Assembly: GCF_003815875.1 (NCBI RefSeq)
Contig: NZ_CP033924.1
Span: 4,526,001 to 4,590,000, forward strand
Source of the DNA: Chryseobacterium lactis
GTDB lineage: Bacteria; Bacteroidota; Bacteroidia; Flavobacteriales; Weeksellaceae
Direction of reading: 5' to 3'
DNA: 64,000 nucleotides
Each line of letters opens with the position of its first letter. The first letter of the stretch is position 1. The position numbers and the translations under genes are program-made. Below the pieces are notes generated by a model, which saw only the letters and a list, made by a program, of their open reading frames with translations, was not told where the DNA came from and searched no databases. Positions 5,078 through 47,204 of the stretch are shown here, piece after piece.

Positions 5078-6547
5078 CTACATTTTTCTGCCTTTAGATT
5101 TTGCGGGTGTTTGAGGTTTTTCCTGTTGTTCCTGCTGCTTTTTGTCTTTTGGGGCTTGCTGTCCTGACTTCAAAGGCTCTTTGATGTTCTTGGTCGCTTC
5201 ATTAGTTTTACCTTCCGAATTAACCGCTGTTTGGGTTTTATGGGTTTCAACAGGTTTTGCCTGTGCCTTAACCTGGCTTGGAAACTGGAAGTTCGTTTTT
5301 CCGGTTTCGGCATTGAAAGTAATATAACCTTGGTACGGTTGTCCTTTCTTATCCTTCAACCCATCAATGTAAACGGTTTGCCCAGCTTTGAAATCCTTGT
5401 ATTGTTCGTCTGTCAGTTCTTTTCCCCTGAATGTTTTCGGGGCTTCCTGCGGTTGATCGTTCTGATTGCTTTGTTGCGTATTCTGTCCGTTGTTTTGCGT
5501 TTGTCTGTTGGTGTTGTTGCGGTCAAACAGAAATTCTACATAACGTTTGTCTGCATTGAACTGTACCGTTGCAGAAAATTCAGTTCCTTTTTTGGAAAGC
5601 ATACCATCCAGCTGAAGCGGTTTGCCCTCCATTAAGGTTTGCTTTTGTGCGTCGTCCAATTTTACCCCTTTTATCTCATCGGGGATTTTTATGAAATCTG
5701 TCCGAAGAGCAATAAGTTCATTGGTCAGTCTATCCACGCTGACAATGGAGGGCATCATTTCTCCCGTCTTAGTGTTTTTCAAATCAACCACTCTGCCCAT
5801 ATTGCCGGTTTCGAGTAGATTTTTTTTATCCTCATCCGTGAATTTGTGCCCAAAAAACTCAAAATTCAGATTGGGTTCTTTTCGGATACCGTGTATTGCT
5901 GCCACCACTTGTCCATCTTCTGTAGACTGTAAAGACAAACGGGCATCGGTGCGTACAATCGCACCACCGAGGTTTACACTTACGGGCACAAGCTCATTGG
6001 TTTTATAGCCTTTCAACAAAGGGTCTAACAAATTCAGTTTTTCAAGGCGATCTTTACCCAATCCAAGATTGTTCATTGTTTCCCAATCAATCTGTTCCGG
6101 CTTAAAGCGATATTCGCTTGTGTCCGTTGTTGTTTGTGTTGTTTCCATATCATTTTTATTTTCTTGTTTTTTATCCTGTTGCGTTTCAGCCTTCACTTCA
6201 TGCTGCTTCATCAGTTGCTCACCTTCAGGAGTAGGCTTATCAACCTGCTTTTGCATTGCATCTGCAGTATCAATAGCTACAGGTGCAGGTACCTTGAAAA
6301 AAGAGAAATTGGTCGGGTTCTTCAACTGGCTGAAGAAATTGGAGAAGAAATTGGAAAAGAAATCTCCATGCTTATCCACACGCATAAACTGATTTTTGTT
6401 TTTCTTCGTGGGATCAACGGTTTCCATATTGCCGTTCTCGTCAATGCTTTTTACAGCCTGGATTTTCTTTTTCTCTTTATCCAGCACCAACAATATATCT
6501 GAGAATTGTTCTGGCATTTCTTGCCTATGTGTGGTTTCCTCGCTCAT
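5078..6547 (-). CDS. DUF4099/DUF3945-type conjugative-element protein
   Basis: This protein of unknown biochemical function is regularly encoded next to topB in Bacteroidota integrative elements. An N-terminal region (residues 1-160) is low in order and contains a tandem FFSNFFSNFFSQ motif. The DUF4099-like part is around YRFKPEQIDWETMNNLGLG, with repeated LLETGNMGRVVDL and TLMEGKPLQLDGM modules characteristic of DUF3945. A long Gln/Lys/Pro-rich tail follows. The gene lies six bases upstream of topB and is certainly co-transcribed with it. The repeated segments suggest binding to DNA or protein, but nothing in the sequence fixes the role. Confidence 0.8.
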   Translation of the reverse strand: MSEETTHRQEMPEQFSDILLVLDKEKKKIQAVKSIDENGNMETVDPTKKNKNQFMRVDKHGDFFSNFFSNFFSQLKNPTNFSFFKVPAPVAIDTADAMQKQVDKPTPEGEQLMKQHEVKAETQQDKKQENKNDMETTQTTTDTSEYRFKPEQIDWETMNNLGLGKDRLEKLNLLDPLLKGYKTNELVPVSVNLGGAIVRTDARLSLQSTEDGQVVAAIHGIRKEPNLNFEFFGHKFTDEDKKNLLETGNMGRVVDLKNTKTGEMMPSIVSVDRLTNELIALRTDFIKIPDEIKGVKLDDAQKQTLMEGKPLQLDGMLSKKGTEFSATVQFNADKRYVEFLFDRNNTNRQTQNNGQNTQQSNQNDQPQEAPKTFRGKELTDEQYKDFKAGQTVYIDGLKDKKGQPYQGYITFNAETGKTNFQFPSQVKAQAKPVETHKTQTAVNSEGKTNEATKNIKEPLKSGQQAPKDKKQQEQQEKPQTPAKSKGRKM

Positions 6548-6631
6548 GTTCCGAAAATTTTAAAGTTCATAGCCGAATTTATATAAAGCCGTGAGCGCAT
6601 TTTGTTATATGGCACTCAAAGGCAGTGTTTG

Positions 6632-6940
6632 TCACTTAATGGCGTTCAACTTAGTTGCCGGCGGATTAAAACTTTCCCGTATAAATTGATGTACGTCAGA
6701 TAGTTTATAATACAGTTTTCCGCTTATGGTATAATACGGCAGCTTGCCGATGGATCGGTAACGTTGCAGCGAGCGGTTACTAATTTTGAGCATCTGAAGC
6801 AAATCCTGATTGTCCAGCAGTTCCTCACCGTCTATACTGTTGCGTTTCCTTTGCAGCTCATCTATATTATCGCCCAACATATCCAGGCGACCCATCAGGC
6901 GTTCCATCCACGCCAAAAATTCCATTCTGTCAATATTCAT
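6632..6940 (-). CDS. Small helix-turn-helix (HTH_17) protein
   Basis: This 102 aa protein has an excisionase/MerR-like winged helix in its C-terminal half: NQDLLQMLKISNRSLQRYRS, followed by the IGKLPYYTISGKLYYKLSDV wing. The N-terminal 40 residues look like a short coiled coil (MDRLMGRLDMLGDNIDEL region). Small HTH_17 proteins in tandem next to topB and RteC genes are typical of Bacteroidota conjugative elements. There they act as excision or transfer regulators (Xis-like or regulatory), though which role applies here is unknown. It follows a second HTH_17 gene by 26 bp and is probably co-transcribed with it. Confidence 0.82.
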   Translation of the reverse strand: MNIDRMEFLAWMERLMGRLDMLGDNIDELQRKRNSIDGEELLDNQDLLQMLKISNRSLQRYRSIGKLPYYTISGKLYYKLSDVHQFIRESFNPPATKLNAIK

Positions 6941-42788: not shown

Positions 42789-43445
42789 TTATTCATCCTG
42801 TTCAGATTTCAGATGTTTATAAGTAGAATCTATTAAAAAAGAAATGGCTTTCTTCACATGCTCACGTCCGTCGGGACTATTAATATCTACCCCACAAAAA
42901 ACACTTCCGTTTAAAGCAGAATACATATTCATATAATAAAGACCCGCCACCATGATCGCCATAATTGAACGATAAACACCCATTTTTTCTTTAAAATGCG
43001 GAGTCATCATGAGTTTAAAAATATATTCTCCGTTTTCTTCCTGCTCATCAATCATTTTTTTCAATGATTTCCGGGGTTCAGAAATACTCCACAATAGTAA
43101 TTTTTGGGCTTCCTTATTGTTATAGACATAGTCAAATTGAGAAATCAACATTGCTTCAATAAATGACCTTCCCCCATCCTCTAAGTTAGGCTGTATTTTT
43201 TCAACTTCCTTACTGTTGACACGTACCCAATAATCCTGTGTCCGAAGATATTCGTCCATCAAACCATCCATTCCGCCAAAATAAGTGTAGATCATTTTCT
43301 TATCTACTCCTGCAATAGCAGCAATATCATTGATTTTTAATGCTGCATATCCCTTCGTGGTGAGAATTTTTCCAACCGCATCCAAAAATTTCTTTTTGCT
43401 GCGTTCTTTGTTTCTGATACTACCTGCTGCTGATTTTCTTTCCAT
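42789..43445 (-). CDS. TetR/AcrR-family regulator, paralogue 1
   Basis: This 218 aa repressor has an N-terminal HTH (residues 10-60), KINDIAAIAGVDKKMIYTYF with recognition helix DKKMIYTYFGG. The HTH is identical in key positions to the two other paralogues in this cluster. The C-terminal helical domain diverges more, as expected for ligand binding. It reads leftward from a degraded palindrome (43493-43510) that resembles the operators of the other units. Its promoter keeps the conserved TTAAACTTGTA segment shared by all three genes. It probably binds the AGACACT-type palindromes of this locus. Confidence 0.9.
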   Translation of the reverse strand: MERKSAAGSIRNKERSKKKFLDAVGKILTTKGYAALKINDIAAIAGVDKKMIYTYFGGMDGLMDEYLRTQDYWVRVNSKEVEKIQPNLEDGGRSFIEAMLISQFDYVYNNKEAQKLLLWSISEPRKSLKKMIDEQEENGEYIFKLMMTPHFKEKMGVYRSIMAIMVAGLYYMNMYSALNGSVFCGVDINSPDGREHVKKAISFLIDSTYKHLKSEQDE

Positions 43446-43492
43446 GACTAAACATTCAACAGTACAAGTTTAAGGAATTTTTTGCTATTTTT

Positions 43493-43510
43493 AAACACCC
43501 AAAAGTGTCT
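43493..43510. promoter_or_regulatory. Decayed palindrome P0 upstream of tetR 1
   Basis: The right half-site AGTGTCT (43504-43510) is intact. The left half reads AAACACC instead of AGACACT. The following -7 region (TATTTACA) no longer matches TATATTTG and no RNA body or terminator follows, so this looks like the remnant of a sixth unit. Confidence 0.5.
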
Positions 43511-43749
43511 TAATTAATATTTACATCTAAAACAAACCGGTCTGTACGGATAAAAAGATCTAAATTAAAAGCTAAAAATACCTCAGGGAATACTTGTTTT
43601 TCCATTTGAAAAAAAACAAAATAAAAGGAATCTATCTACAATACATCACGATTTCAGATAGCAAGCAAAATATAGATCATTTTAAAATGAAAATTATTAA
43701 ACTGATTTACAGCTATTTAAATTAAAATATTAAAATTTTTAATTATTTT

Positions 43750-43781
43750 AGACACTTAATAGTGTCTTATTTGTATATTTG
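43750..43781 (+). promoter_or_regulatory. Operator-promoter P1 of RNA unit 1
   Basis: AGACACT-TAAT-AGTGTCT (43750-43767) is a perfect palindrome with seven-base arms. It is followed six bases later by the -7 box TATATTTG (43774-43781). The palindrome sits between the -33 and -7 positions, where a bound TetR dimer would block RNA polymerase. Confidence 0.75.
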
Positions 43782-43786
43782 TACAA

Positions 43787-43940
43787 ACTAAAACCATCTA
43801 TATACACAAAAGCACTATTCAGGTTGAAAAACTAAACAATTTCGATGATGTGATCTTCCTTGATTAAAATTGGTTAATAAGTAATTAAGGTAAAAACACT
43901 ATTGTAAAAAGCCCCATTAGAAATCTAACGGGGCATTTTT
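43787..43940 (+). ncRNA. Putative small RNA, unit 1
   Basis: The predicted start is about 7 nt after the -7 box. The body of ~150 nt has no useful open frame. It contains an internal stem CCTTGATTA (43858-43866) / TAATTAAGG (43882-43890), the block AAGGTAAAAACACTA, and a terminator hairpin GCCCC...GGGGC (43911-43934) plus T-run. The hairpin also has T residues on the other strand, so it can end the convergent tetR 2. Confidence 0.7.
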
Positions 43941-43964
43941 ATTGTTGAACTGGCCTTTCTGAGC

Positions 43965-44618
43965 CTATTCTTTATTCTCATCTTTCAGATCTTCAAAAGT
44001 ATGATCTAATAAAAAAGAAAGAGCCTCTTTAATTTGGGTACGTCCTCCAGGAGTATTAACATCTATACCACAAAAAATACTGCCATTCATAGAAGAAAAC
44101 ATATTCAGGTAATACAACCCCGAAACCATGATGGCCATGACAGAACGAAAAACCTCAGAATTTTCTTTAAACTGTGAACCCATCGTATCAAAAAGAAACT
44201 TACCGTTTTCTTCCTGCGTATCCGTCATTTTTTTCAGTTCTTTCCGCGATTCGGACAACCTCCATAATAACAGCTTTTGGGTTTCTTTATTATTATATAC
44301 GTATTCGTATTGAGCCAGCAAAAGTTCTTCCGCAAATGATCTTCCTCCATCATCTGTTCTCGGATTCATCTTTCCAATTTCTTCACTGGTCGTCTTGCTC
44401 CAGTAGTCCTGTGATCGGATATACTCATCCATCAAACCATCTATACCTCCAAAATAAGTATAGATCATTTTTTTATCTACTCCGGCTGTAGCAGCAATAT
44501 CGTTCACCTTTAATCCTGTATATCCTTTTGTTTTCAGAATTTTTCCAACTGCATCCAAAAATTTCTTTTTACTGCGTTCTTTATTTCTAATGCTGCCTGC
44601 TGCTGATTTTCTTTCCAT
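43965..44618 (-). CDS. TetR/AcrR-family regulator, paralogue 2
   Basis: This 217 aa protein starts at the ATG at 44618; an earlier in-frame TTG is unlikely. The N-terminal block ERKSAAGSIRNKERSKKKF and the HTH VNDIAATAGVDKKMIYTYFG match paralogues 1 and 3 almost exactly. The C-terminal half is divergent in the ligand-binding region but keeps YYLNMFSSMNGSIFCGIDVN. It diverges from palindrome P2 and is convergent with RNA unit 1. The likely arrangement is a repressor flanked by two RNA units that it could control. Confidence 0.9.
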   Translation of the reverse strand: MERKSAAGSIRNKERSKKKFLDAVGKILKTKGYTGLKVNDIAATAGVDKKMIYTYFGGIDGLMDEYIRSQDYWSKTTSEEIGKMNPRTDDGGRSFAEELLLAQYEYVYNNKETQKLLLWRLSESRKELKKMTDTQEENGKFLFDTMGSQFKENSEVFRSVMAIMVSGLYYLNMFSSMNGSIFCGIDVNTPGGRTQIKEALSFLLDHTFEDLKDENKE

Positions 44619-44658
44619 GGTAAAATTCAATATACAAGTTTAAGGATTTTTTTATTAT

Positions 44659-44694
44659 TTTAGACACTACAAAGTGTCTAAATTTGTATATTTG
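44659..44694 (+). promoter_or_regulatory. Operator-promoter P2 (divergent tetR 2 / RNA unit 2)
   Basis: TTTAGACACT-ACAA-AGTGTCTAAA (44659-44682) has perfect ten-base arms. The rightward -7 box TATATTTG lies at 44687-44694. On the left, tetR 2 has a TAAACTTG element between the palindrome and its start codon, so one site can regulate both directions. Confidence 0.78.
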
Positions 44695-44699
44695 CATAA

Positions 44700-44864
44700 A
44701 ATAAAAATCAGTTGTAATTAAAAAGAACAATCTGATTACAATAAAAAACAACCTTGATTGTCGAATATCCTCTTAGTTTAAGCCAATTTTGAAGACTAAG
44801 CAATTGAGGTAGAACACTACTCATTGTCAGCATCGTTGAGTTTTTTAATGGTGCTGTTTTTTTT
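44700..44864 (+). ncRNA. Putative small RNA, unit 2
   Basis: The body of ~165 nt diverges most from the others but keeps the layout. The internal stem uses CCTC (44769-44772) with GAGG (44806-44809) in place of CCTT/AAGG, and CTTAGT with ACTAAG. The AGGTAGAACACTACT block follows. The terminator is CAGCATCGTT...AATGGTGCTG with G-U pairs (44828-44856) and eight T residues. No open frame of note is present. Confidence 0.65.
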
Positions 44865-44975
44865 ATTTAAATAAGATTTTTCATCTTGATAATAAAAGAG
44901 ATTTTCATATTTAAATAAAAAAAACATACTTAAAATCAACACGTTACAAAATATTAATAAAATTTAATTTAATTT

Positions 44976-45008
44976 AGACACTTCGAAGTGTCTTATTTTA
45001 TATATTTG
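44976..45008 (+). promoter_or_regulatory. Operator-promoter P3 of RNA unit 3
   Basis: AGACACTTCGAAGTGTCT (44976-44993) is a perfect 18 bp palindrome. A TATATTTG -7 box follows after seven bases (45001-45008). No tetR gene diverges from this site. Confidence 0.75.
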
Positions 45009-45013
45009 CACAA

Positions 45014-45182
45014 AACTAATAACCATTTTTATATTAAAACACTATTTAGATTGAAAACTAAACAATTTCGATAGCATTACGTTTCCCTTGATTAAGATAA
45101 TTAGTTTCGAAGATTTAATAATTAAGGTAAAATAAACTACTGAAAGCAGCATCATTTATCATCTAAATGATGCTGTTTTTTT
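45014..45182 (+). ncRNA. Putative small RNA, unit 3
   Basis: This unit is closely related to unit 1: CACTATT-AG-TTGAAAA and CTAAACAATTTCGAT blocks are shared. The internal stem is CCTTGATTA (45086-45094) / TAATTAAGG (45119-45127). The terminator is CAGCATCATTTA / TAAATGATGCTG (45147-45175), a perfect 12 bp stem with seven T residues. The RNA is non-coding by eye. Confidence 0.7.
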
Positions 45183-45298
45183 ATATTACAGAAAACACTT
45201 GTCGTAATATATTTCAAAGGATTTTCATCACTTAGAATAAAAATTAACACCTGAATAACAGTAAATTACAAATATTTTCAAAAAAAATAATTCAGTTT

Positions 45299-45331
45299 AG
45301 ACACTTCATAGTGTCTTATTTTATATATTTG
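45299..45331 (+). promoter_or_regulatory. Operator-promoter P4 of RNA unit 4
   Basis: AGACACT-TCAT-AGTGTCT (45299-45316), followed by TATATTTG (45324-45331). The arm sequence and spacing are the same as in P1-P3. Confidence 0.75.
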
Positions 45332-45336
45332 TACAA

Positions 45337-45470
45337 ACTAAAACCTTCTATATATAAAAACACGGGTCGAAAACAAAAGCAGTTATTATTAAGTTCCCTC
45401 TGTTTAAGACAATTTCGAACACTAAGGTAAAAACACGACACGCAAAACAGCATCTTCAGGATGCTGTTTT
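45337..45470 (+). ncRNA. Putative small RNA, unit 4
   Basis: This is the shortest unit (~134 nt). It shares the 5' block ACAAACTAAAACC-TCTATATA with unit 1 and CTGTTTAAGACAATTTCGAAC with other members, then AAGGTAAAAACAC. The internal CCT/AGG stem is weak. The terminator AAAACAGCATC / GATGCTGTTTT (45444-45470) is symmetric, so it can also end the convergent tetR 3. Confidence 0.65.
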
Positions 45471-45514
45471 GTATTTTACAACTTATTACAATGCAATAGG
45501 CATGAAAATAGGTT

Positions 45515-46168
45515 TTATTTATCAGAATTTTTAAGATGCTTATAGCTTTGTTCCAACAAATAAGATATTGCCTTTTTGATGTTCTCTCGATCTTTAGGAG
45601 TATGAATATCTATTCCACAAAAAATACTGCCGTTAACAGCAGCATACAGATTAAGGTAATATAACCCTGAAACGATAATGGCTAATATTGCCCGAAAATC
45701 TCTGGAACGTACTCCAAAATGGGGATCCATCATCAATTTAAAAATATGCTCTCCATTTTCTTCCTGAGTGTCGGTAAGTTTTTTTAACGATTTCCGGGGC
45801 TCAGATATACGCCACAATAATAATTTTTGTGCCTCTTTGTTGGTATAAACATAATCAAATTGAGATAACAGCATCTCTTCCATAAAAGATTTTCCACCAT
45901 CATCTATTTTAGGTTTTATTCTTTCAATTTCTTCAATCGTGATCATGCTCCAGTAATCCTTGGAGCGGATATAGGCATTTATAAGCCCATCAATCCCACC
46001 AAAATAGGTGTAAATCATTTTTTTGTCTACACCAGCGGTAGCGGCTATCGTATTAACTTTTAAAGCTTGATAACCTTTGGTTTTCAGAATTTTTCCAACT
46101 GCATCCAAAAATTTTTTCTTACTTCGCTCCTTATTGCGAATGCTCCCTCCTGCTGATTTTCTTTCCAT
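45515..46168 (-). CDS. TetR/AcrR-family regulator, paralogue 3
   Basis: This 217 aa protein has N-terminal ERKSAGGSIRNKERSKKKF and HTH VNTIAATAGVDKKMIYTYFG, with the same recognition helix as paralogues 1 and 2. The C-terminal domain is closest to paralogue 1 (LLLWRISEPRKSLKKLTDTQ). It diverges from palindrome P5 and is convergent with RNA unit 4. The shared recognition helix predicts that all three repressors bind the same palindromes, possibly with different inducers. Confidence 0.9.
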   Translation of the reverse strand: MERKSAGGSIRNKERSKKKFLDAVGKILKTKGYQALKVNTIAATAGVDKKMIYTYFGGIDGLINAYIRSKDYWSMITIEEIERIKPKIDDGGKSFMEEMLLSQFDYVYTNKEAQKLLLWRISEPRKSLKKLTDTQEENGEHIFKLMMDPHFGVRSRDFRAILAIIVSGLYYLNLYAAVNGSIFCGIDIHTPKDRENIKKAISYLLEQSYKHLKNSDK

Positions 46169-46214
46169 GGTAAAACGTTCAAGGATACAAGTTTAAGAAA
46201 ATTTTCAATATTTT

Positions 46215-46247
46215 GCACACTTTATAGTGTCTTATTTCATATATTTG
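46215..46247 (+). promoter_or_regulatory. Operator-promoter P5 (divergent tetR 3 / RNA unit 5)
   Basis: The site reads GCACACT-TTAT-AGTGTCT (46215-46232): the right half-site is intact and the left has two outer mismatches. TATATTTG lies at 46240-46247. It serves the rightward RNA and probably tetR 3. Confidence 0.7.
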
Positions 46248-46252
46248 TAAAA

Positions 46253-46422
46253 ACTAATAACCGCTTTTTATATTAAAACACTATTAATAAGTAGAAAAAC
46301 ACATAATTCAATTGAGTTATGTCCCTTATTTAATGACAGTTGGTTCGAACATTCAGTTAAGTGATTAAGGTAAAAAACACTACTTGTTTACAGCATCGTT
46401 AGAAATCTAGCGATGCTGTTTT
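46253..46422 (+). ncRNA. Putative small RNA, unit 5
   Basis: The body of ~170 nt starts like unit 3 (AACTAATAACC, TTTATATTAAAACACTATT). It has a short CCTTA (46324-46328) / TAAGG (46366-46370) stem, a GGTTCGAAC motif, and the block AAGGTAAAAAACACTACT. The terminator is CAGCATCGTTAGA / TCTAGCGATGCTG (46391-46418) with T-run. Its only ATG opens a four-codon frame. Confidence 0.7.
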
Positions 46423-46535
46423 GGCTTCAGCCATTATAGTTTTCTATGAGGGAATTGCAGGTAATTATATATTCTGTCGTTTCATTATTTTTAGTTATTA
46501 TTGTAAAAACTAATAATTTTAAACTAATCAAAACC

Positions 46536-47204
46536 ATGAAAAAAATTTTGATACTCTGTGGTTTAGTATTTTTAACCGCCTGTTCAAATCCTACGGGCAA
46601 AAAATACAATGAAGCCACGATGCCTCAGGATCTGAAAGAAATAGCGGAAAGTAAAAAATGGAACGAACAGGATGCCGGTTTATTTGCCGGTTGGGTCATC
46701 CGGGCAAAATTAAAAGGTGAATCGCTGGAAAGTAAAACCTATCAAAGTATTTTGGATGATGCTAAAAAGTTTAAAGCCGAAGAGGATGCATTGGCTGAAA
46801 AGGCCAAAAAAGAAATGGAAGCAAGAAAACAGAAAATGAAGGAAGCGCTTACCGTCACTATTTTTGCTAAAGAATATGTTCCAAGTAATTTTGATGCCGG
46901 AAGACTTGAAGATTATAACTTATTCAAATATGCGATACAGAATAAGTCGGCAAAGGAAATAAAAGCGGCAAAAATCAGTTTTAAAATATTTAATTCTTTA
47001 GGCGAACAAATCGGAGATTCCTACAGCATGGACTTTACAGATGACAGAATTGCAGGTAACTCAACCTTTAAAGGGGACGCAGCATTTGACTACAATCAGT
47101 TTTCCAATGATGATAAGAAAATAGCTTCTGCCAAATTTGAAGACTTACTATTTGATTTTGATGTGAAGAAAATTGTGTATTCTGATGGTTCAGTTTTAGA
47201 ATAA
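46536..47204 (+). CDS. Lipoprotein with coiled coil, unknown function
   Basis: This 222 aa exported lipoprotein has lipobox FLTACSNP after KKILILCGLV. Residues 60-110 form a Lys/Glu-rich coiled coil (DDAKKFKAEEDALAEKAKKE). The C-terminal half is an Ig-like or FxLYD-type beta domain (YNLFKYAIQNKSAKEIKAAK ... FDVKKIVYSDGSVLE). Its function is unknown. The ATG at 46536 is needed for the signal sequence. It follows RNA unit 5, separated by that unit's terminator, and ends at a strong terminator. Confidence 0.78.
   Translation: MKKILILCGLVFLTACSNPTGKKYNEATMPQDLKEIAESKKWNEQDAGLFAGWVIRAKLKGESLESKTYQSILDDAKKFKAEEDALAEKAKKEMEARKQKMKEALTVTIFAKEYVPSNFDAGRLEDYNLFKYAIQNKSAKEIKAAKISFKIFNSLGEQIGDSYSMDFTDDRIAGNSTFKGDAAFDYNQFSNDDKKIASAKFEDLLFDFDVKKIVYSDGSVLE

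Follow-up and report, generated by a model that had tools for sequence, protein, structure and literature searches.

An array of three tetR genes and five rightward units without coding potential, U1 to U5, lies between 42.8 and 46.4 kb of a 64,000-nucleotide stretch of the Chryseobacterium lactis genome (the window; positions 4,526,001-4,590,000 of a single-contig 5.62-Mb genome; coordinates are given in window numbering). The units probably constitute a functional family of non-coding small RNAs that derives from a hydrolase gene, is expressed from TetR-operated promoters and has been multiplied together with its regulator into arrays. We further lean, if only slightly, towards a regulon that has outlived its enzyme: the hydrolase gene would have been lost in the ancestors of this Chryseobacterium clade, its transcript would have become a regulatory RNA, and the resulting array of paralogous TetR-RNA switches would now serve almost no other gene. 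The anatomy of the units, their apparent origin, the selection acting on them and the near-dedication of their operators can be read from the comparison of sequences.

Architecture of the units

A preliminary description of the window had placed five operator-promoter-RNA-terminator units among three tetR genes, and all of these elements are present (Table 1). Each unit is preceded by a palindrome of the AGACACT-N4-AGTGTCT type, the putative operator, which is perfect in P1-P4 and has an imperfect arm in P5. In all five units a -7 box, TATATTTG, follows, 6 bp after P1 and 7 bp after P2-P5, as had been described. These boxes fit TAnnTTTG, the -7 box that mapping in Flavobacterium psychrophilum assigned to sigma-A (PMC9723704). 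The arrangement of tetR2 and tetR3, divergent from P2 and P5 and convergent with U1 and U4, is likewise as described. The RNAs would be about 140-175 nt long, and all five units end in an intrinsic terminator consisting of a hairpin and a T-run. The pair CAGCATC/GATGCTG, previously ascribed to four of these terminators, occurs exactly in only three (U3, U4 and U5); the arms read CAGCATC/GGTGCTG in U2 and GCCCC/GGGGC in U1. The decayed palindrome reported before tetR1 could also be located, and since it is followed by a weak match to our RNA model (43516-43608, 14.2 bits, E = 0.075), a sixth, dying unit is possible there.

The units resemble remnants of a hydrolase gene

In several sister species with a single unit, this unit is long (300-570 nt) and contains protein-like stretches interrupted by stops. 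A possible parent gene is found in Paenimyroides baculatum (locus L065), in which a tetR gene 60% identical to tetR2, with a similar operator and -7 box, is divergent from an intact hydrolase gene: behind the operator lie a 308-aa gene and then a gene for a 439-aa serine hydrolase (PF00144, E = 5.9e-50). Compared with this hydrolase, the long unit of locus L057 scores 60.5 bits (E = 3e-15; 41% over 87 residues, across an internal stop) and that of L059 44.3 bits, against a maximum of 20.8 bits for reversed units. When 133 of the 146 units were compared with it, five scored higher than any of 20 shuffled sets, whose maximum was 26.6 bits, and their matches all fall within hydrolase residues 4-122. 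The long units thus show what is expected of a pseudogene, namely collinear similarity to the hydrolase with stops or frame changes. The link to PF00144 emerged only through the comparison with the Paenimyroides hydrolase; when pieces of decayed units were searched apart against Pfam, none of ten matched PF00144.

The short units may be connected to the long ones by more than leader and terminator. Outside these two parts, none of 200 shuffles reaches the alignment score in 35 of 49 comparisons between seven short and seven long units; by unit, this holds in 7/7 comparisons for U4, 4/7 for U1, 3/7 for a type C unit (see below) and 1/7 for U3. We read TTCCCTCAGTTTAA, a block conserved in many short units, as corresponding to hydrolase codons in the long ones. 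A motif scan of the open reading frames (ORFs) of at least 200 aa in loci L022-L065 revealed no intact hydrolase gene beside an operator in Chryseobacterium, the only one being that of Paenimyroides; further PF00144-like genes exist in the genome of the window, and the closest of them is 30% identical to the Paenimyroides protein. Taken together, the RNA family looks like a relic of a protein-coding PF00144 serine hydrolase gene, an origin that the preliminary description had missed and that would explain why the TetR proteins seem to lack an enzyme target.

Operators lie almost only in the arrays, and the RNA family co-occurs with tetR in Chryseobacterium

Four of the genome's five perfect operators stand in the array, and the reversed control pattern does not occur in the genome at all; hence the array is not a product of chance. 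Across 26 RNA-bearing genomes, 22 of which have at least one perfect operator, 44 of 45 perfect operators stand at a unit or a tetR gene, and the reversed control occurs once. The sole exception belongs to the window's own genome (G000:C1:1731591-1731608; positions 1500-1517 of locus L010), where a perfect operator, with the 7-bp spacing to a TATCTTTG box known from the array, precedes a gene of 320 aa with a secreted-looking N-terminus and no Pfam match. A homologue search in 21 genomes gave five full-length or nearly full-length matches, this gene with its perfect operator included, and nine partial ones. Of the other four in the former group, the paralogue in the window's genome and one of two homologues in genome G192 are preceded by palindromes with 2 mismatches, the second G192 homologue by a palindrome with 3 mismatches further upstream, and that in G213 has no palindrome close by; none of the nine partial homologues has a palindrome with up to 3 mismatches. 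These palindromes suggest that a small protein branch of the TetR regulon may exist in this lineage. The RNAs are the main visible target of the operators, but not the sole one in this genome.

Nearly all operators are accompanied by a -7 box. In our alignment of short units (A2; 58 of 60 non-redundant units, the odd units of L056 and L058 being excluded), the invariance of the box is partly a matter of construction because units were selected for TATnTTTG. A freer test is provided by those palindromes of L022-L065 that are perfect or deviate at a single position, of which only three (in L026, L039 and L040) lack a box by our rule.

A covariance model built from the 58 units, those of the window included, detects exactly U1-U5 in the window's genome, the next match having an E-value of 0.2. 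No Rfam model, Flavo-1 included, matches the window at its gathering cutoff, and at E <= 5 the array attracts only PyrR, AaHKsRNA82 and Spot_42, all far under cutoff. In other Chryseobacterium genomes the family is conserved, as the idea of a genuine RNA family demands: under stricter filters, 36 of 108 genomes of the genus are positive, with one to seven matches each. An array-type tetR is present in all 36 positive genomes (27 within a sample of 246 genomes of the family, nine others), and by comparison of coordinates each listed RNA match in this set lies within about 1.5 kb of one. Conversely, all 40 genomes of the 246-genome sample with an array-type tetR carry the RNA, 27 by the stricter search and the other 13 at E <= 0.01 (weakest best E among these, 3e-4). 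Of 45 loci retrieved with tetR2, 40 are named Chryseobacterium, and none of the 246 genomes from outside this genus has a tetR relative above 65% identity. The genome sample overlaps in species, only units with identical first 120 nt having been merged. A search for the RNA leader pattern elsewhere with up to 2 mismatches gave three matches against three in the control, which says little since the units vary in length and the pattern picked up none of the window's own except U5. Conservation, co-occurrence with tetR and operator placement, together with the two-sided changes described below, support the earlier notion that the TetR paralogues are associated with a non-coding RNA family in several copies.

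Several details of the operators vary between loci. Operator core and -7 box are 18 bp apart in the type A units of L024-L045 and 16-17 bp apart in L042/L043, about one helical turn more than the 7-10 bp seen elsewhere. On the minus strand of L050, a Chryseobacterium metagenome-assembled genome (MAG), five consecutive operators occur at about 5670-6840, with units in which stretches resembling a hydrolase active site can be seen by eye. L063, from a Flavobacterium MAG, has an operator-like site divergent from tetR and a 192-nt unit with a terminator and no clear family similarity, which may be an independent RNA. Among six loci of the neighbouring genera g9 and g21, an operator stands beside tetR only in L104, a Chishuiella locus in which the next long ORF is major facilitator superfamily-like.

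Selection on the RNAs and alternative explanations

In order to compare RNA and regulator within the same loci, we used two groups of orthologous units, types A and C, chosen by operator features only (usable units: 24 of 24 and 17 of 19, respectively). Over the 125 nt behind the -7 box, type C units are 84.7% identical, compared to 55.1% at the fourfold sites of the adjacent tetR gene, with the RNA higher in 136 of 136 pairs. For type A the values are 81.8% and 61.2%, with the RNA higher in 261 of 276 pairs; in both groups the pairs are not independent tests since the species share ancestry. The TetR proteins are 84.4% (type C) and 95.6% (type A) identical. As RNA identity exceeds that of the fourfold sites and the TetR proteins are themselves conserved, the comparison argues that RNA and TetR are both under purifying selection. 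The gap cannot be due to a recent transfer of the locus because both values were measured in the same locus. In the 80 nt 3' of the terminator, identity falls to 50-60%, in groups that were partly chosen by body motifs. The 146 deduplicated units include 21 without a rule-defined terminator, some at locus ends, which were excluded from the conservation tests.

Base pairing is conserved as well. In the 58 aligned units, 90.6% of the cells of the terminator hairpin are paired and two-sided changes occur at 13 of its 15 pairs. An internal stem, formed by CCTCAGT with ACTGAGG in most units and by CCTTGATT with AATTAAGG in U1 and U3, has 88.8% of its cells paired and two-sided changes at four of seven pairs; in U4, two of the seven pairs are non-standard. 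Sliding the stem partners by 1-3 columns causes a sharp drop in paired cells and covariation, and none of 500 shuffles reaches the internal stem's share of paired cells.

Several observations weigh against a functional RNA of hydrolase descent. U3 and the type C units align only weakly with the long hydrolase units, so that the case for their hydrolase origin is mainly that operator, leader, 3' block and terminator are common to both. Decay or loss affects type A units in some species, L033, L037 and L083 being examples, and one perfect operator lies at the 320-aa protein gene. The internal stem is gapped out in 13 of 58 units and, taken alone, is moderately supported, its count of two-sided pairs being matched by 49 of 500 shuffles. 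RNAalifold recovers the terminator only, and of the five window bodies only U2 clearly out-folds shuffles.

Part of this would suit the view that the units are functionless leftovers of an operon once under TetR control, which may still be transcribed and which spread with duplication of the tetR module: their bodies are decayed gene pieces, some are being lost and most fold no better than shuffles. We nevertheless regard this as unlikely, since in the same loci the RNA is more conserved than synonymous sites and than the region behind the terminator, the terminator shows two-sided changes and the -7 boxes are retained at nearly all operators. Alternatively, the additional operators might titrate or co-ordinate the TetR paralogues, with the transcripts being incidental. 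The near-confinement of operators to the array and the existence of two operators without a tetR gene of their own, P3 and P4, would fit such a sponge, which would require conservation of neither the RNA body nor the terminator and hence appears improbable. We consider it a shade less plausible still that the units insulate in cis by placing terminators or transcription against convergent tetR genes. U1 and U4 do converge on tetR2 and tetR3, and their hairpins weakly match the model on the opposite strand (19.9 and 18.3 bits), but U2, U3 and U5 are not convergent with any tetR gene and the body is conserved besides the terminator.

The bodies had been described as free of reading frames, and we found no consistent frame in them. 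For 92 short units, drawn from all species, the mean length of the longest closed ATG frame is 5.2 codons compared to 11.3 in shuffled sequences, and 41 units have none, on which grounds a small protein gene was rejected. With GTG and TTG starts admitted, the mean frame is 14.8 codons against 16.4 shuffled. A small peptide with an unusual start is the least probable alternative of all: short start-less frames can be read by eye in type A and C bodies, and 41 of the 92 units have a frame of at least 15 codons with these starts, yet this share is below the shuffled 53% and the ATG frames have about half the shuffled length.

A proposed path from enzyme operon to TetR-RNA switches

For the functional RNA family that we favor, we infer transcription, TetR binding and its sign, a ligand, action in trans and targets as follows. 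In the ancestral state, tetR and a divergent operon with a PF00144 hydrolase gene would have shared an intergenic operator. In Chryseobacterium the hydrolase gene would then have decayed, with promoter, leader, a few internal blocks and terminator being retained as an RNA, and duplication of this RNA together with its TetR regulator would have given rise to the arrays. The putative operator would cover the upstream part of each RNA promoter, and a TetR dimer bound there, immediately before the -7 box, would keep RNA polymerase away; blocking by an operator-bound dimer is the usual practice of TetR proteins. TetR dimers would in this way shut off transcription of the RNAs and, at the divergent sites P2 and P5, probably that of tetR too, until a ligand released them and several related RNAs were made together. 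Conservation of a body that does not code makes an RNA acting in trans the most likely product, and the RNAs would most likely act via base pairing with mRNAs. Pairing between the RNAs and the three tetR leaders was no better than for shuffles.

The birth of bacterial small RNAs is seldom seen with its intermediates. Here related species, with regulators and operators that are related too, show an intact operon, long units in partial decay and compact conserved RNAs, which makes the route from mRNA to small RNA datable and testable. The flavobacterial RNA family of the array is, moreover, readily manipulated: if the TetR proteins repress, their deletion should turn the RNAs on.

Relation to known systems

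Among the known systems are TetR/AcrR-family regulators encoded divergently from their target gene, with TetR, AcrR and QacR as archetypes. The array shares with them the TetR_N domain and a palindromic putative operator between divergent genes; in contrast, its main visible targets are non-coding RNAs. Another close system is the tetR-hydrolase operon of P. baculatum, with which it has the related tetR and the similar operator and -7 box in common and whose hydrolase is collinear with the long units; in Chryseobacterium, however, what is left of the hydrolase gene is a broken copy or a short RNA. Sibling small RNAs in multiple copies are known from Qrr, where several related RNAs are under one type of regulator. 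The same would hold for the array, although regulators and sequences differ. Like sibling RNAs under common regulation, small RNAs exapted from sequence of another kind are already known, and Jose et al. reportedly reviewed the latter in 2019. As in exapted small RNAs, a functional RNA would have arisen from sequence with another history, but here parent gene, intermediates and regulator are visible side by side.

By description rather than by sequence, the units also resemble the independent short RNAs of F. psychrophilum such as Rfp18, which have no coding potential and are typically 176 bp long (PMC9723704). Like these, the array units are short, flavobacterial and non-coding, and their -7 boxes fit the TAnnTTTG of that species; TetR does not occur in the main text of that paper (PMC9723704). 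A literature search, whose coverage of subscription papers was mostly missing, found no TetR-controlled Chryseobacterium RNA, and TetR-RNA modules that stem from a TetR-enzyme pair and form an array would to our knowledge be a new variant.

Annotation of the array, its TetR proteins and neighborhood

Table 1. Features of the tetR-RNA array. RNA-model scores stem from a model whose training set included these window units.
Feature	Position	Strand	Description
tetR1	42789..43445	-	218 aa; ORF, TetR_N PF00440 above cutoff, 68% identical to tetR2
Decayed operator upstream of tetR1	43493..43510	.	From sequence
Operator P1	43750..43767	.	Perfect AGACACT-N4-AGTGTCT
U1	43774..43941	+	From -7 box TATATTTG to T-run; RNA model 114.9 bits
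U1 internal stem	CCTTGATT 43858-43865 with AATTAAGG 43883-43890	+	From sequence
U1 terminator hairpin	43911-43934	+	From sequence
tetR2	43965..44618	-	217 aa; ORF, TetR_N; divergent from P2, convergent with U1
Operator P2	44662..44679	.	Perfect; separates tetR2 and U2
U2	44687..44862	+	Terminator hairpin 44828-44856; RNA model 101.6 bits
Operator P3	44976..44993	.	Perfect; no tetR of its own
U3	45001..45181	+	Terminator hairpin about 45146-45176; RNA model 118.3 bits
Operator P4	45299..45316	.	Perfect; no tetR of its own
U4	45324..45472	+	Terminator hairpin about 45445-45470; RNA model 99.2 bits
tetR3	45515..46168	-	217 aa; ORF, TetR_N, 68% identical to tetR2; divergent from P5, convergent with U4
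Operator P5	46215..46232	.	One arm GCACACT (two mismatches); separates tetR3 and U5
U5	46240..46424	+	Terminator hairpin 46390-46420; RNA model 102.2 bits

All three TetR proteins match TetR_N (PF00440) at 34.7-35.9 bits, the Pfam cutoff being 24, and no NCBIfam model matches them at its cutoff. The best relative of solved structure for an array TetR is Mce3R (E = 4e-8), with the match limited to the DNA-binding part. A tetR paralogue elsewhere in the genome (locus L004, G000:C1:3618624-3619250; 46% identity) has no array-type operator in view and overlaps the end of the preceding gene, which resembles acyltransferases of the BioF/Kbl and serine-palmitoyltransferase type, none above curated cutoffs. 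This neighbor hints at a lipid-like ligand of the TetR proteins, as a lead only. In genome G270, array tetR copies contain stops or split frames (G270:C1:4448915-4451137); this genome is 75% complete, so that an assembly error may be responsible.

A scan of the window for tRNA genes found none. The gene following U5, with a lipoprotein-like N-terminus, is preceded by a promoter and leader resembling those of U5 (46496-46634; 21 nt at 90%, weak model match of 19.4 bits). Just 3' of U2, a 22-nt inverted repeat, 95% complementary and with a 28-nt spacing, occupies 44855-44926.

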